Shown: positions 25,832-31,919 of the stretch, one piece after another | Layout: each line of letters begins with the position of its first letter | Numbering within the stretch: position 1 is the first letter of the stretch | Made by a program: the position numbers and the translations under genes | Notes under the pieces: model-generated | The model's input: only the letters and a program-made list of their open reading frames with translations | The model's database searches: none | Told to the model about the DNA's origin: nothing | Assembly (NCBI GenBank): GCA_000495735.1 | Contig: AYMD01000011.1 | Coordinates: forward strand, 14,473 to 46,882 | DNA from: an uncultured Acidilobus sp. JCHS | GTDB lineage: Archaea > Thermoproteota > Thermoprotei_A > Sulfolobales > Acidilobaceae | Direction of reading: 5' to 3' | DNA: 32,410 nt

Positions 25832-25863
25832 TCGCCCCACTACGTGAGGAGGTTCAGCACCAG

Positions 25864-25871
25864 GTTTATAA
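25864..25871 (+). promoter_or_regulatory. tnpB TATA box
   Basis: TTTATAAA within GGTTTATAAAAAAGC. A start about 26 bases later falls at GTG 25895, so this box both predicts a leaderless tnpB mRNA and excludes the longer reading from 25844, which would place the promoter inside the gene. Confidence 0.6.
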
Positions 25872-25894
25872 AAAAGCCTTGCTGGGGACAACTG

Positions 25895-27343
25895 GTGCCT
25901 AGGGTGGTGCCTTTGCCTTCAGATGAGTTGGTGGGTCGATTACCCACTGTTTTCACCACCCCAGGCACTAAGTCTTCCAAATCGAGGGGTAAAGGTAAGC
26001 ATGCTTCGAAGGATGAAAACAAGCGTACGGTTAGGCTTAGGCTTCTGCCAAATGGTGCCCAGGAGAGGAGGCTAAGAAGAATTGCTGATGCCGCTGCTAA
26101 GTTATGGAATGGGTTGAATTACGCCAGGTTGGTTCAGTTTAGGAAGTCGGGTATGGTTGATTTCAAGGGTACGGAGCACGAGTTCTACCACAAGTATAAG
26201 GATAAGCTAGGTGTGAATGCTGGGCAGGTGATTAACCTAAATAATTGGATGTGGAATTCATTCTTTGAGTTGTCTAAGCTGTACAAGCAAGGCAAGCTAC
26301 CGAGGTTTTACAGAAAGCCATCACCACCAGGCTTCTGGAAGGACAGGTTGCTAGGCAAGAGGTTGTTGAGGATCCTAGTTAGGAACGACAGGTACTACCT
26401 TGAGCCTATCAACAACGGCGAGGGCTACCTAGTCCTAAAGGACTGGGGTTTGAGGATAAAGTACGCTGGGAAGATAAAGTGGAGCGGTAAACAAGGCACA
26501 CTCGTAATCAAGTATGAGGATGGCAGGTGGTTTGCCTATGTACCAATCACCGTTGGGGAGAAACCCGCTAAGTCTAATCCAAAGGGCTACGTACACGGTA
26601 TTTACGAGAAAATACAGATTGAAAAAACCAAGGACAGTAACAAGGCTTTCATAGACGTTGGTTTGAACAACCTGTTTGCGGTGGTGTTTAATCACACTGA
26701 CGTTGCTATCCTGATCAAGGGTTCGACAATTAAGTCCGAGCACTATTACTGGAAGAGAGAGGTCAAGACCTACCAATCCGTTAGGGATTGGCTCAAAAAC
26801 CACGGATTCGAATCATGGCATAAATATTATACATACTATCTGCATGCAGTTTACAAGAAGAGGGAGAGGCTTAGGCATTATTATCGCACGGCGATTAGGT
26901 TCATAGCCAAAACGCTCCATGGAATGGGCGTCGATGAAGTGTTCATTGGTTACCCATACCTAGTGAGTCAAGACAATAGTAATGAGTACAACACCAATGT
27001 TTGGTGGTATGCGAAGGTAATCAATTGGCTTGGTGAGGTGTTGCAGGAGTATGGAATCAAACTCAACGTGGTTAATGAGTACGGAACGAGCAAGCAGTGC
27101 TCAATATGCAACATGGAACACGAGAACGGTAGGGTTAAGCGTGGGTTGTACGTGTGCGAATTAACTGGAATAAAGATTAACGCCGACATAAACGCAGCAA
27201 GAAACATAGCAAAGAGGGCGGGTTACAACACACCAATACCAAGGAAGATATTGAGCTATATAATAACAACCAATGGCGTGAAACCATTAACCCCCATAGA
27301 GGGGGTAACTGTCGAGACCCCCAAAGTGAAACCTCGCCCTTAA
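25895..27343 (+). CDS. tnpB: TnpB of the archaeal GYPY clade, RuvC-II glutamate not evident
   Basis: 482 residues from GTG 25895. After a variable N terminus come the helix-rich TnpB N domain (RRLRRIADAAAKLWNGLNYA) and the RuvC-like core. The first Asp is in AFIDVGLNNLFAV. The position of the usual Glu (as in the EDL motif of the IS607 TnpB here) reads FIGYPYLVSQDN, with Gly instead. The last Asp is in INADINAARNIAKRAG. The zinc-ribbon region has CSICNMEH and a single later Cys (GLYVCELTG). The GYPY-SQD-NEYNTN-WWY pattern is, from memory, shared by many archaeal TnpBs, so it may be an alternative active site rather than decay. The 3' end runs into the right-end hairpin. Confidence 0.88.
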   Translation: MPRVVPLPSDELVGRLPTVFTTPGTKSSKSRGKGKHASKDENKRTVRLRLLPNGAQERRLRRIADAAAKLWNGLNYARLVQFRKSGMVDFKGTEHEFYHKYKDKLGVNAGQVINLNNWMWNSFFELSKLYKQGKLPRFYRKPSPPGFWKDRLLGKRLLRILVRNDRYYLEPINNGEGYLVLKDWGLRIKYAGKIKWSGKQGTLVIKYEDGRWFAYVPITVGEKPAKSNPKGYVHGIYEKIQIEKTKDSNKAFIDVGLNNLFAVVFNHTDVAILIKGSTIKSEHYYWKREVKTYQSVRDWLKNHGFESWHKYYTYYLHAVYKKRERLRHYYRTAIRFIAKTLHGMGVDEVFIGYPYLVSQDNSNEYNTNVWWYAKVINWLGEVLQEYGIKLNVVNEYGTSKQCSICNMEHENGRVKRGLYVCELTGIKINADINAARNIAKRAGYNTPIPRKILSYIITTNGVKPLTPIEGVTVETPKVKPRP

Positions 27344-27946: not shown

Positions 27947-29371
27947 ATGTCCAGCGCTGACGTTCTGTCCGTCCTGATGTCGATAGACGAGAGCGCCCTC
28001 ACCGAGGACGGCCAGGGGCTCAGGCACCTACAGGCCGGGAGGGCCAGGCAGGAGGGCCTGAGGCTGTGGGTCGAGACGCCTCTTGGGTCGGCCTACTACT
28101 ACGTGGTGCCCAAGTCCCTTGAGTCCCTGGCCTCTGACCTGAGGCCAGACGCCCTCTCCATGGTCCCCCTGAGGGACCGTCTTGAGGCTCTGGCGGAGGC
28201 GGCTGACGTAGTTGATGAAATGAGGGACCAGGTGGCCAGGCTGATCTCAGCTGAGACGGGCAAGGAGCTCAGCGCCTCAAGCGAGGAGGTGGAGGCGGCC
28301 GTCGACTTCCTGAGGAGGGTAGGCAACCTCTTCCAGGGCAGGCCCTCGTCGGCCAGGGGGCTCCTGCTGACCCCCAGCTCGCCCGACCTGTGGAGCTCCG
28401 TGTCCATAATGTCAGCCAGGGGCATAGCCCTCGTGCTGCCCCCCTTCACGGCCCCCTTCTTCGGGGCCATGGCGGGGGCCGGCGTCGCGATAGCGGCCGG
28501 CCTGCCCGTCATGATCAAGGCGCCGTGGCAGTCAGCGGCATCATCAATTGCCGCGGCCCTGGCGCTCAGGGGCACCGACGTGGGTGAGCACGTCTCGGCC
28601 GCCCCCTTCAGGGGGCCCCCGCTGGCCTCAGGGGTCTCAGCGGTCGTCCTCTTCGGCAGGCCCGAGACCTCAACGGCTGTCTGGAGGGAGACCGGGATCA
28701 GGCCGTCAGCCAACTGCAGCGGGAGGTCAGCGCTGGTCCTGTGCTCGGAGCCCAGCGATATCGAGTCCCTCGCCAAGTCCGTAGTTGAGCTCTCCTTCTC
28801 GCACGCGGGCCAGGCCTGCGGGAGCGTCAGGTGGGTGCTGGCCAGGAGGGACCTGGCCCGAGGCCTTGTGGACTCGATGGTTGACATCGCTGAGCAGCTG
28901 AGCGTGGGCAGCCCCCTTGAGGGCAAGAACGTGGGGCCCCTCAGGTCAAGGGGCCTCGTCGAGAGGGCCCACAGGCTGGTCAACGACGCTGTGGCCAAGG
29001 GCGCCACGCAGGAGGTGGAGCTGAGGTCAAGCGGCAACTACGCCTCGCCGGCCATCCTCAGCGGCGTCCCGAGGGGCGCTGACATACTGTGGACGGACCT
29101 CCAGGCCCCCGTGGTGGCGGTCTCGGAGTTCGACAGCTGCTCAGAGGCGGTTGAGACGGCGGCCATGATGAGGGGGGCCACCCACGCGCTTGTCTACGGC
29201 TCCCTCTCGCTGGCCGAGTCCCTGGCCTCATCAAGGCAGGGCCTCATAGTGGTTAGCCTGAAGGGGGAGAGCGCGGCCCCTTCAAGGGGGCCCTGTTATG
29301 TGGTGGGGGACCCTGTCAAGGCCCTCTCAGGGGGGTCTGAGCTCTGGGGCGAGTCGCTACTCCTCTTCTGA
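27947..29371 (+). CDS. Divergent aldehyde dehydrogenase-superfamily protein
   Basis: 474 residues with the ALDH fold. The cysteine nucleophile motif is present: SHAGQACGSVRW, Cys291. Two other hallmarks are altered. The site of the LELGG general-base Glu reads SANCSGRSALVL (about residues 254-265), and the oxyanion Asn of the P-W-N-x-P motif reads PPFTAP (165-170). The K of VMIKAPWQ, used in cofactor binding, is kept. Loss of the base Glu is seen in CoA-acylating and phosphorylating members, so an acyl-CoA-forming reaction is possible, as is loss of activity. It is co-transcribed with the adenosyltransferase. Its 3' end overlaps the PCNA gene on the other strand by 15 bases. Confidence 0.8.
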   Translation: MSSADVLSVLMSIDESALTEDGQGLRHLQAGRARQEGLRLWVETPLGSAYYYVVPKSLESLASDLRPDALSMVPLRDRLEALAEAADVVDEMRDQVARLISAETGKELSASSEEVEAAVDFLRRVGNLFQGRPSSARGLLLTPSSPDLWSSVSIMSARGIALVLPPFTAPFFGAMAGAGVAIAAGLPVMIKAPWQSAASSIAAALALRGTDVGEHVSAAPFRGPPLASGVSAVVLFGRPETSTAVWRETGIRPSANCSGRSALVLCSEPSDIESLAKSVVELSFSHAGQACGSVRWVLARRDLARGLVDSMVDIAEQLSVGSPLEGKNVGPLRSRGLVERAHRLVNDAVAKGATQEVELRSSGNYASPAILSGVPRGADILWTDLQAPVVAVSEFDSCSEAVETAAMMRGATHALVYGSLSLAESLASSRQGLIVVSLKGESAAPSRGPCYVVGDPVKALSGGSELWGESLLLF

Positions 29372-30238
29372 GCCCCCTTCCTCTTCCTCGGCCTCTGCTT
29401 CCTCCCCTTCGGACTCCTCTTCCTCCTCCCTGGTGGCCTCGGCCTTCTCCTCGGCAGCGGGGGCTGCGCCGGCGGCCGCCGGCGCCAGGATGTACCTTAC
29501 TGACATGCCTCCTGGGGACTCGAACTTCAGCTCCAGAGGCCTATCGGTGCTGAACTGAATGTCCACGACGTCGGCGACCTTGGCCATAGCGAGGACCTTG
29601 TCAAGGTAGTTGAAGTCGTACCTGCTCGTGGTCCTCTCATTTACCTCAATGGCTACCAGGCTGGCCGAGCCCGAGAGGAACTTGGCCTCGACCCTCTTCT
29701 CGCTGGCCGCCCTCACGGCGAACATGTTCTCGGTAGCCTCAACCTCGACCACGTCGCCGAACTCGCCGGCGTCGCTGAGGGCCCTCTTGAAGGGGTCAGA
29801 CAGTATCTTCACGTGGGCGGTGTGCTCAAGCTTTATCTCAGGGACCTCGGAGGAGACCTCGAGGTTGGGCAGCAGGTACTCCCTGATGGGCTGGCCCTCG
29901 ACCCTGACGAGCAGGTTGGAGAGGGAGACCTCAAGGGTCACTACGTCAGTCTTCTTGACCCTTGAGAGGGCCCTCGAGAGGGCCGAGAGGTTAGCGCCAA
30001 GGTTGACGCCCTCCTCGGGGACCTCGTACTCGAGGAAGTTGGCGTATGGTATGGTGACCTCTATGTAGGCCACCTTGGCGGGATCCATGCCGACAGCCTT
30101 AACGCCCTCCTTCGTTATCGTGAAGGAGGCCTCCTCAAGCAGCTCGCTCAGGGACTCAACGAGCGTGGCCAGCGTGGTCGCGCTCGGGTACTTGAGCTTA
30201 GCCTTGACCTCCCCAAGCTGCGACTCAAACTCGCTCAA
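29357..30238 (-). CDS. pcn: DNA polymerase sliding clamp PCNA with acidic tail
   Basis: Ring clamp that tethers polymerase, FEN1 and ligase to DNA. The PCNA core is complete: KAKLKYPSATTLATLVESL, VGMDPAKVAYIEVTIP, the inter-domain connector SSEVPEIKLEHTAHVKI, YDFNYLDKVLAMAK and the C-terminal MSVRYILAP. The usual clamp ends there, near residue 250. Here some 40 residues follow: an Ala/Gly/Pro hinge (AAAGAAPAAEEKAEA) and then an almost pure Glu run. About ten extra residues also precede the conserved N terminus. Start TTG 30238 after GGGAGGGG. Crenarchaea often have several PCNA paralogues forming heterotrimers; only one is in this window. Confidence 0.93.
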   Translation of the reverse strand: MSEFESQLGEVKAKLKYPSATTLATLVESLSELLEEASFTITKEGVKAVGMDPAKVAYIEVTIPYANFLEYEVPEEGVNLGANLSALSRALSRVKKTDVVTLEVSLSNLLVRVEGQPIREYLLPNLEVSSEVPEIKLEHTAHVKILSDPFKRALSDAGEFGDVVEVEATENMFAVRAASEKRVEAKFLSGSASLVAIEVNERTTSRYDFNYLDKVLAMAKVADVVDIQFSTDRPLELKFESPGGMSVRYILAPAAAGAAPAAEEKAEATREEEEESEGEEAEAEEEEGGSEEE

Positions 30239-30306: not shown

Positions 30307-31161
30307 TTGCCTAGGGCCACAGCTTACGTGAGGCTCCTGAGGCCTGAGAACGACGTGATGATGGGCGTAATCGTTATCGTGGGGGCGCTGGTCGCGGGCA
30401 ATGGCTCCCTTCCGGCCTCCTCGTCGCTTCTGATAGGCTTCCTGGTCGGCTTCGCCCTCGCGGCCTCGGCCATGGTGCTTAACGACATAGCAGACATCAA
30501 CATAGACAGGCTCAACGACCCATCAAGGCCTATCCCCTCAGGGCAGGTAAGCCTCAGGTCGGCCTGGGCCCTCTTCGGCCTCCTCTCAGCCGCGGGGCTT
30601 GCCCTGGCGGCCCTTCAGGGGGTCCCTGAGCTTGCCCTGGCGGCCATATCATACGCTGTGGCCGTGAGCTACGACCTGAGGGGGAAGAGGACGGGCCTTC
30701 CAGGCAACATGATGGTCGCCTTCACAGGCGTGTCTCCAGTGCTCTACGGGGCGCTGCTCTCAAGGGGGATCAACCTCACGATCGCCCTCGAAGCCCTCAT
30801 GATATTCCTCGCCATGGTGGGCAGGGAGATAGTGAAGGGGGTCGCTGACGTGGAGGGGGACAGGGCCAACGGCATAAGGACGCTGGCTGTCGTCGTTGGG
30901 CCCCGCAGGGCCGCCCTGGCCTCGCTCGGCTTCTTCGTAGCCGCGGTCTCCCTGAGCCCCCTGCCGCCAGCGCTAGGCCTCGTGAACCCCGTCGCCTACT
31001 CCGTGCCCGTAGCGCTGGCGGACGTAGGCTTCCTCCTGTCCTCGATATCTGTGGTGAGGGACCCCTCGAGGCCCACGGCCCTGAGGGCCAAGGAGCTTCA
31101 GCTAGCGATGTACTCGGTGGCCCTGGTGGGGTTCGCCCTCGGCGCGCTTAGATACATATAA
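30307..31161 (+). CDS. UbiA-family prenyltransferase, probable DGGGP synthase
   Basis: Adds the second geranylgeranyl chain to geranylgeranylglyceryl phosphate in archaeal membrane lipid synthesis. 284 residues, about eight or nine membrane helices. Both Asp-rich motifs are clear: NDIADINIDRLNDPSRPIPSG and, in the second loop, KGVADVEGDRANGIRTLAV. The N-terminal YVRLLRPENDVMMG is also typical of the archaeal DGGGP synthase. Start TTG 30307, close behind the bidirectional TATA box. The MTHFR-like gene follows 38 bases later. Confidence 0.92.
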   Translation: MPRATAYVRLLRPENDVMMGVIVIVGALVAGNGSLPASSSLLIGFLVGFALAASAMVLNDIADINIDRLNDPSRPIPSGQVSLRSAWALFGLLSAAGLALAALQGVPELALAAISYAVAVSYDLRGKRTGLPGNMMVAFTGVSPVLYGALLSRGINLTIALEALMIFLAMVGREIVKGVADVEGDRANGIRTLAVVVGPRRAALASLGFFVAAVSLSPLPPALGLVNPVAYSVPVALADVGFLLSSISVVRDPSRPTALRAKELQLAMYSVALVGFALGALRYI

Positions 31162-31199: not shown

Positions 31200-31919
31200 T
31201 TGGAGCTGCTGGCAGAGCTCCCGCCGCAGAGGTCCGCCGAGAGGTTGCTTGGCCTTGCCAGCGAGCTATCAAGGCTTGCGGACGCCATTGACGTCCCTGA
31301 CGCCCCCTTGGGCCTCCCAGCCCCCTCGTCCGCCCTGGCCTCGGCCATCATAAGGTCCCGCCTCTCGCCTCCCCCTGAGGTGGTGGCCCACCTGAGGCTC
31401 CTTGACGTGAGCGGGCTCGGCGCCCTCAACATAGCCAAGGGGCTTGAGCTGGCCGGGGTCTCGAGGCTCCTCCTGCTCAGGGGGGACGCGCCTGCCGTGG
31501 GGGACCCCTGCAACAACGAGCCTGAGTTCGTGATGAACACGCTCAGGTCCTCAGGAGTCAAGCTTAAGCTCGGCCTCCTCCTGAGCCTCGCGAAGCCCCT
31601 CGAAGAGGTTATGAGGAGGGTCAGGGCCAGGGCCGACTTCTACTTCGTCACAAGGCCCTGGTGGTCCCCGGCCCTCGGAGACGTCCGCAGGGAGGCCGGC
31701 GCCCTGGGCTCAAGGGTTTACGTGTACCTGGTGGTTGAGACCCCCCGCAACGCCCATGTACTCGCAGGCTTGCCGGCCGAGGAGAAGGTAAGGGAGGGCC
31801 AGGTAGCCCAGGCCGCGCTTCGGCTCTCAGAGGCCGTCGACGGCGTGATAATATCGTCGCCAGGGGACAGGGAGGCCCTGCTCAGGTCCCTCAGGGAGGT
31901 CAGGGAGGCCCTGGGCTAG
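31200..31919 (+). CDS. Methylenetetrahydrofolate reductase-like protein, short archaeal form
   Basis: 239 residues resembling a shortened MetF TIM barrel. Seen are ELPPQRS at the N terminus (the Glu that activates the substrate in MetF lies in such a motif), AIDVPDAPLGLP, VVAHLRLLDVSG, LLLLRGDAPAVGDP on the flavin side, and DFYFVTRPWWSPAL. It would reduce methylene-tetrahydrofolate (or a pterin analogue) to the methyl form. The electron donor is not evident and the chain is shorter than the roughly 290 residues of MetF. Start TTG 31200. A folate cyclo-ligase is also in this window. It converges with an MFS gene, the stops overlapping. Confidence 0.78.
   Translation: MELLAELPPQRSAERLLGLASELSRLADAIDVPDAPLGLPAPSSALASAIIRSRLSPPPEVVAHLRLLDVSGLGALNIAKGLELAGVSRLLLLRGDAPAVGDPCNNEPEFVMNTLRSSGVKLKLGLLLSLAKPLEEVMRRVRARADFYFVTRPWWSPALGDVRREAGALGSRVYVYLVVETPRNAHVLAGLPAEEKVREGQVAQAALRLSEAVDGVIISSPGDREALLRSLREVREALG

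Follow-up and report, generated by a model that had tools for sequence, protein, structure and literature searches.

Why should an archaeal sliding clamp end in a long acidic tail, and what might such a tail do? The question is raised by a 32,410-nucleotide stretch of DNA from an uncultured Acidilobus sp. JCHS (assembly GCA_000495735.1, contig AYMD01000011.1, positions 14,473 to 46,882; hereafter the window, whose own numbering is used throughout), in which a gene on the reverse strand (29357-30238, TTG start) encodes a PCNA of 293 amino acids (aa). The tail of this protein is real, it is confined to one genus among those read, and it is maintained there.

Apart from the tail, the protein is an ordinary clamp. 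Both PCNA domains pass the curated Pfam cut-offs (PF00705, PCNA_N, residues 16-103, 42.7 bits against 20.3; PF02747, PCNA_C, residues 137-253, 30.7 bits against 23). The core, delimited by alignment columns as residues 1-253 (29480-30238, reverse strand), ends in SVRYILAP, and its last three residues, Leu251-Ala252-Pro253, are invariant in all 12 rows of an alignment of clamp relatives. The AlphaFold model has pLDDT values of 71-93 per ten-residue block over residues 1-250 and adopts the clamp fold, with 6aig as its best structural match (E = 1.6e-26, TM-score 0.89 by target length); the top sequence match in the PDB is likewise Aeropyrum pernix PCNA1 (24ku/6aig, 181 bits). Among the best 60 of 95 matches, the S. 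solfataricus subunit PCNA3 (SSO0405) scores 124.5 bits and PCNA2 94 bits, and PCNA1 does not appear, so that within these matches the window protein is nearer to PCNA3 than to either of the other two subunits and can be classed as a PCNA3-type (A. pernix PCNA1-like) subunit. The same genome encodes three PCNA paralogues, one each of the PCNA1, PCNA2 and PCNA3 types; the best S. solfataricus matches of the other two are PCNA2 (L031, 121.4 bits) and PCNA1 (L032, 79.6 bits, chain 7rpo_A). Judging by sequence, the three would be expected to assemble into a heterotrimeric sliding clamp ring. The crenarchaeal PCNA3 type, as represented by S. solfataricus PCNA3 and A. pernix PCNA1, thus has the same core sequence and fold and is likewise one of three paralogues, whereas the clamp of the genus studied here adds an acidic tail of 40-51 aa.

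In the window this tail (29360-29479, reverse strand, followed by a stop codon at 29359-29357) comprises 40 aa, AAAGAAPAAEEKAEATREEEEESEGEEAEAEEEEGGSEEE, of which 19 are Asp or Glu and 2 are Lys or Arg, for a net charge of -17. The first-pass annotation had described an Ala/Gly/Pro hinge and a Glu-rich run beyond the clamp core, and both are present past residue 253. By composition, the hinge is AAAGAAPAA (residues 254-262, 29453-29479, reverse strand); it leads into a linker, EEKAEATR (residues 263-270, 29429-29452, same strand), at the position of the Arg-rich patch in three relatives, and the charge count then delimits an acidic run of 23 aa with a net charge of -16 (29360-29428, same strand). 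When the C-termini of the 30 window open reading frames (ORFs) of at least 120 aa (overlaps removed, longest kept) were ranked by charge, that of PCNA was the most acidic, and the last-40 segment of the runner-up reached only -3. From residue 251 on, the pLDDT of the AlphaFold model is about 39-51, and no secondary structure is predicted past that residue; the tail is thus probably disordered. Eukaryotic PCNA has a short acidic end of a few residues past the core, against the 40-51 aa found in this genus. No description of this tail was found in the titles and abstract openings of the open-licence PMC articles that the literature searches listed.

How widespread is the tail? PCNA was found in all of 60 related genomes searched, and C-termini were read for the 30 that scored best, with a single match taken from each genome. 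Four of these genomes belong to a single genus, probably Acidilobus, namely the window's own (G000) and three others (G001, G002 and G003), and all four carry in-frame tails, of 40, 46, 51 and 43 aa. The remaining 26 clamps all end 2-6 aa past the core (three of them close with IAP, VAP or TAP instead of LAP, as judged by eye), which bears out the premise of the first-pass annotation that sliding clamps normally stop there. The comparison of paralogues that it had called for restricts the tail to the PCNA3-type subunit in three genomes of the genus: the two other PCNA paralogues are tail-less in G000, G002 and G003, and in G001, which is 84% complete, the tailed PCNA is the sole copy found. 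In a phylum-wide sample of 398 genomes, 389 of which gave a match, only the three members of the genus sampled, G000, G002 and G003, match into the tail without an internal stop among the best-scoring matches listed. Ends read in 13 of 14 loci from named relatives (L263 was left out) agree, with a tail in Acidilobaceae archaeon UBA162 and 12 tail-less clamps, including those of one Caldisphaera and two Hestiella. In a tree of the 30 cores, midpoint-rooted for drawing only and with long branches flagged by the program in the tailed row L004 and in L028, the four tailed clamps form one clade with support of 100/99, adjoining four tail-less clamps of genus g5, and these eight together are also supported at 100/99. 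The simplest reading of this pattern is a single gain of the tail on the stem of the genus.

The clamp gene overlaps its convergent neighbour, an aldehyde dehydrogenase gene on the forward strand (27947-29371; Pfam Aldedh, E = 6.4e-43), by 15 nucleotides (29357-29371) that comprise the PCNA stop codon and the last four codons, and conservation of the tail in spite of this overlap had been proposed as a check. The same 15-nucleotide overlap occurs in G001 and G003 and is absent from G002, where the tail persists. A frameshift or antisense read-through of the aldehyde dehydrogenase gene was therefore ruled out as the source of the tail, because four genomes have an open frame there, one of them without the overlap, and the concern over the overlap is minor.

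The tails of the three other genomes consist of an Arg/Lys patch (net +3 to +4 through the last basic residue) and then a Ser/Glu-rich acidic run of 22-30 aa with a net charge of -13 to -20; the window tail has the acidic run and no basic patch (-1 over that part). Across the four genomes the net charge of the whole tail ranges from -9 to -17. The letters of the tail are poorly conserved among the four species; its length, order and charge are maintained, and the tailed clamps of the relatives are 52-58% identical to the window protein. One explanation that would suit the poor conservation of letters together with the upkeep of composition and length is that the tail has no specific partner and, as a generic charged bristle, aids only solubility, folding or crowding behaviour. 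At least two more ORFs in the window's genome, met in passing, have acidic tails (L114, 258 aa; L088, 119 aa), as this explanation would allow; a loose GAG-run pattern for such tails was uninformative, with 391 matches in that genome against 331 in a reversed control. We nevertheless consider it somewhat unlikely, given that the tail is found on one of three clamp paralogues and, among those read, in one genus, that the acidic run is held at 22-30 aa despite only 52-58% identity, and that the other ORF ends in the window are far less charged.

Glu-rich low-complexity DNA can lengthen by slippage, and the tail could in principle be neutral low-complexity growth that followed the loss of an old stop codon, an account with which its strong divergence across species agrees. 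The codons speak against it. Within the Ser/Glu runs of four diverged species both amino acids are encoded by a mixture of codons, and GAA makes up 17 of the 75 Glu codons in the four tails (6/19, 3/14, 4/24 and 4/18, window first) compared with 7 of 100 in the four cores (0/30, 4/23, 0/24 and 3/23, in the same order) and 29 of 556 across 25 window ORFs with the tail left out. The excess of GAA is thus strongest in the window tail (29360-29479, 6/19 against 0/30 in its core), and is weaker but alike in the tails of the relatives. Such mixing of synonymous codons within runs disfavours recent DNA slippage and points either to selection at the protein level or to avoidance of GAG repeats; the GAA enrichment may reflect the latter. 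With the frame open across four genomes despite an identity of only 52-58% to the window protein, and with the net charge kept between -9 and -17, neutral growth appears very improbable, and the pattern argues for a tail kept by protein-level selection rather than produced by fresh slippage.

The tail had also been likened to that of the archaeal ribosomal stalk protein P1/L12, without its terminal hydrophobic motif. The absence of the motif is confirmed: in G000, G002 and G003 the L12 protein shows Lys/Glu alternation and then a terminal GLFGM (a family search gave no L12 match in G001), and a terminal motif of this type is present in all three of these L12 proteins compared with none of the four PCNA tails, none of which ends hydrophobically. 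The likeness itself is borne out only by the appearance of the window's own tail, in which, as in the stalk, a Glu-rich stretch comes after an Ala/Pro hinge, but does not extend to kinship. After its Ala-rich hinge, the window tail has 2 Lys/Arg against 19 Asp/Glu instead of a Lys/Glu alternation, and the relatives' three tails combine Arg patches with Ser/Glu runs. An origin of the tail from the ribosomal stalk was accordingly rejected once the three L12 proteins of the genus had been read, and the resemblance is superficial.

What, then, could a charged appendage do at this position? The extreme C-terminus of PCNA often pairs with the strand that precedes the PIP-box glutamine of partner proteins (PMC3504372), so that the tail would start at the docking site, and its location fits the suggestion of the first-pass annotation that it could recruit or repel partners or tune clamp loading. 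In S. solfataricus, PCNA1 binds Fen1, PCNA2 binds PolB1 and PCNA3 binds DNA ligase 1 (PMC3950489). The same location of the C-terminus at the PIP-box binding site (PMC3504372) would allow the tail to control loading or ring assembly, either by competing with RFC or PIP boxes or by shielding the positive pore from non-target DNA, and the basic-then-acidic order seen in three of the tails would be apt for a self-binding switch. Inspection by eye showed no PIP-like motif in any of the four tails, however, and we regard control of this kind as improbable.

The closest tested precedent is PBP1, a small subunit of the PolB1 holoenzyme of S. solfataricus and thus also a replication protein with a short Glu-rich C-terminus, which has 12 Glu among its last 19 residues (PMC5418573). 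The acidic tail of PBP1 curbs most strand displacement and makes post-burst synthesis 25- to 30-fold faster, and in the presence of PCNA, Fen1 and ligase it essentially abolishes full-length displacement products (PMC5418573). The likeness to the tailed clamp is one of functional analogy only: PBP1 is a different protein with a different fold, it binds PolB1 directly, whereas PCNA is the clamp, and its C2H2 zinc-finger domain is absent from the tailed PCNA, which has the PCNA core instead.

PBP1 is stated to occur in Acidilobales (PMC5418573, PMC7923795), and the likeness of A. pernix PBP1 and PBP2 to their S. solfataricus counterparts has been called not obvious (PMC5911459). A query was obtained with a primer from PMC7923795: among the 214 genomes of the order it had matches in two of one genus, G203 and G204, and gave PBP1 of S. 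acidocaldarius or its near sister. The zinc-finger part of this protein matches 163 of the 214 genomes at E up to 1. In the genus of the window, PBP1 was not found by way of a neighbouring ribokinase-type kinase. A 72-position zinc-finger profile, built from 17 stretches of which two were weak matches from the window's family, matches 42 of the 48 genomes of the family at E up to 1 and 39 at E < 1e-4. In the window's genome the PBP1-like protein (L186, G000:C9:158054-158221, E = 1.9e-11) is encoded by a gene separate from that of PCNA. When the hidden Markov models were rebuilt with the two family rows removed, and with a row from f8 removed as well, the identical ORF was chosen in all 30 loci. 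Scored with the family-free profile against 665 ORFs with Z = 20000, at loci first located with the full profile, the four of the tailed genus, its candidate PBP1 orthologues, gave E-values of 2.3e-9 (L186), 2.5e-10 (L184), 9.8e-9 (L190) and 7.2e-9 (L191).

We then defined a strongly acidic PBP1 end as a net charge of -6 or less over the last 16 residues and read 89 ends, the 30 best in the family and 59 outside it. Strongly acidic ends account for 2 of the 30 family proteins, both in genus g6, and many of the others are basic; within the tailed genus the ends carry net charges of 0, +2 (the window's genome), -3 and -3, and three of these four proteins have a short Ser/Glu end. Outside the family, in a hand-chosen sample of which half comes from f11, the family of S. 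acidocaldarius-like genomes, 43 of 59 ends are strongly acidic (f11, 30/30; f3, 4/4; f5, 3/3; f4, 1/1).

Acidic modules are also known at other sites of replicases, in the N-terminal extension of Thermoproteales PolB1 and in an acidic domain of p12 of eukaryotic Pol delta (PMC5418573, discussion); there the bearer is the polymerase, here it is the clamp. An acidic module on PolB1 was considered for the window's family and dropped, since the PolB1 extensions are mixed or basic. No acidic run was found in the N-terminal extensions of 30 family genomes read (41 had a match): measured from the first in-frame start codon, and thus from predicted start sites, these extensions span 48-186 aa, are charge-mixed or basic, and reach -6 in their lowest 20-residue window. 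Those of the genus have net charges of +1 (G000, with 21 acidic and 22 basic residues), -3, -5 and -5, with a lowest 20-residue window of -4. As a separate observation, the family extensions (L220-L249, for example G000:C1 upstream of 147841) contain an LDEFL-like motif near the start and a SILDFM/TLLDYM-like motif further on, each present in 21 of 30, whereas 200 shuffles gave means of 0.2 and 0.1; as both patterns had been drawn by eye from these same extensions once read, the test is not independent. These motifs could be PCNA-binding or other docking motifs.

The PolB1 extensions bear on a further explanation, in which the tail would act as an electrostatic recruiter or chaperone for basic proteins, either chromatin proteins ahead of the fork, such as Cren7 and Alba, or basic segments of replication enzymes, and would clear them away or collect them at the clamp. 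Clearing would matter because Cren7 and Sso7d on DNA restrict strand displacement by PolB1 in Sulfolobus (PMC3783171), and a Lys/Arg-rich PolB1 extension, a possible target, occurs in other genera of the family (g8, g12 and g14). In the tailed genus itself, however, the extension is balanced to slightly acidic, and in three of the four tails the tail's own basic patch could fold back onto the acidic run. For these reasons we hold such a role to be unlikely.

The reading that we favour, tentatively, is that the tail is a clamp-borne acidic brake and an aid to hand-over, added in one lineage to a PCNA3-type subunit; it is preferred because the closest tested precedent is the PBP1 tail, which is mostly missing from the family proteins read. 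Under this reading the tail would have been gained, most simply once, by the ancestor of a single genus, probably Acidilobus, on the PCNA3-type subunit. It would emerge from the clamp directly at the end of the terminal strand, which flanks the PIP-box pocket, and, as a tethered, DNA-mimicking polyanion, would compete weakly for the DNA-binding surfaces of the docked polymerase, flap nuclease and ligase. The result would be less strand-displacement synthesis and a faster release and hand-over of partners at the ends of Okazaki fragments, comparable to the effect of PBP1 in Sulfolobus. As the PBP1-like proteins of the family mostly appear to do without an acidic tail, the genus would carry a larger one on the clamp instead. 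That the brake found on PBP1 in many related archaea has moved to the sliding clamp in this genus is a more specific proposal, possible in our view but held with real doubt.

Several observations weigh against this reading. Six other genera in which all three proteins were read (g5, g8, g9, g12, g13 and g14) have neither a strongly acidic PBP1 end nor a tail on this PCNA nor an acidic run on PolB1, so that compensation is not obligatory, and a single gain would offer no statistical link. Acidic PBP1 ends are themselves patchy outside the family (f9, 0/8; f6, 0/2; f8, 0/1; f2, 3/6; f7, 2/4). PBP1 of S. acidocaldarius by itself finds its best match in the window's family at only E = 0.029, the profile reaches only E = 0.8 and 0.26 in the single-contig g13 genomes G015 and G023, and orthology of the family proteins is proposed from the 72-position zinc-finger profile. 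Because the tail is on the PCNA3 type, the ligase-binding subunit in S. solfataricus, it need not face the polymerase. Finally, chromatin proteins alone can restrain PolB1 in Sulfolobus (PMC3783171).

The surroundings of the clamp gene contain several other genes. Its divergent neighbour is a UbiA prenyltransferase gene (30307-31161, forward strand; Pfam UbiA), and a UbiA-like ORF also adjoins PCNA in L037-L039, as judged by eye. Beyond it lies an ORF of 239 aa (31200-31919, forward strand) with no Pfam match at E up to 1; ORFs resembling it by eye are found near the clamp gene in the three other genomes of the genus, partly masked in L039. On the other side, two genes separate the clamp gene from an ORF for a TnpB/IS605 OrfB-type protein (25844-27343, forward strand; 499 aa from the first possible start) with a Cas12f1-like TNB domain. 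Elsewhere in the genome, the two further ORFs with acidic C-terminal tails are L114:413-1189 (forward strand), whose N-terminal NikA-like match is below the Pfam cut-off, and L088:1219-1578 (forward strand), which matches nothing in Pfam or NCBIfam at E up to 0.01; the latter was tried as a candidate for PBP2 and rejected, as it does not resemble PBP2 of S. acidocaldarius.

Clamps are among the most uniform of replication proteins, and here one subunit carries a charged, probably disordered appendage that would sit at its docking site. For PBP1, PolB1 and Pol delta it has already been suggested that acidic modules shift between replisome subunits (PMC5418573), and the clamp tail, together with the PBP1 ends of the family, mostly without strong acidity, turns this idea into a concrete comparison between the tailed genus, tail-less relatives such as Caldisphaera, and Sulfolobus. 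The tailed clamp thereby provides a natural experiment on how polymerases are kept from displacing the next Okazaki fragment. If the brake has indeed moved to the clamp, the ring would carry it along, it would act on the flap nuclease and the ligase as well as on the polymerase, and the acidic module would be a portable part of the replisome.

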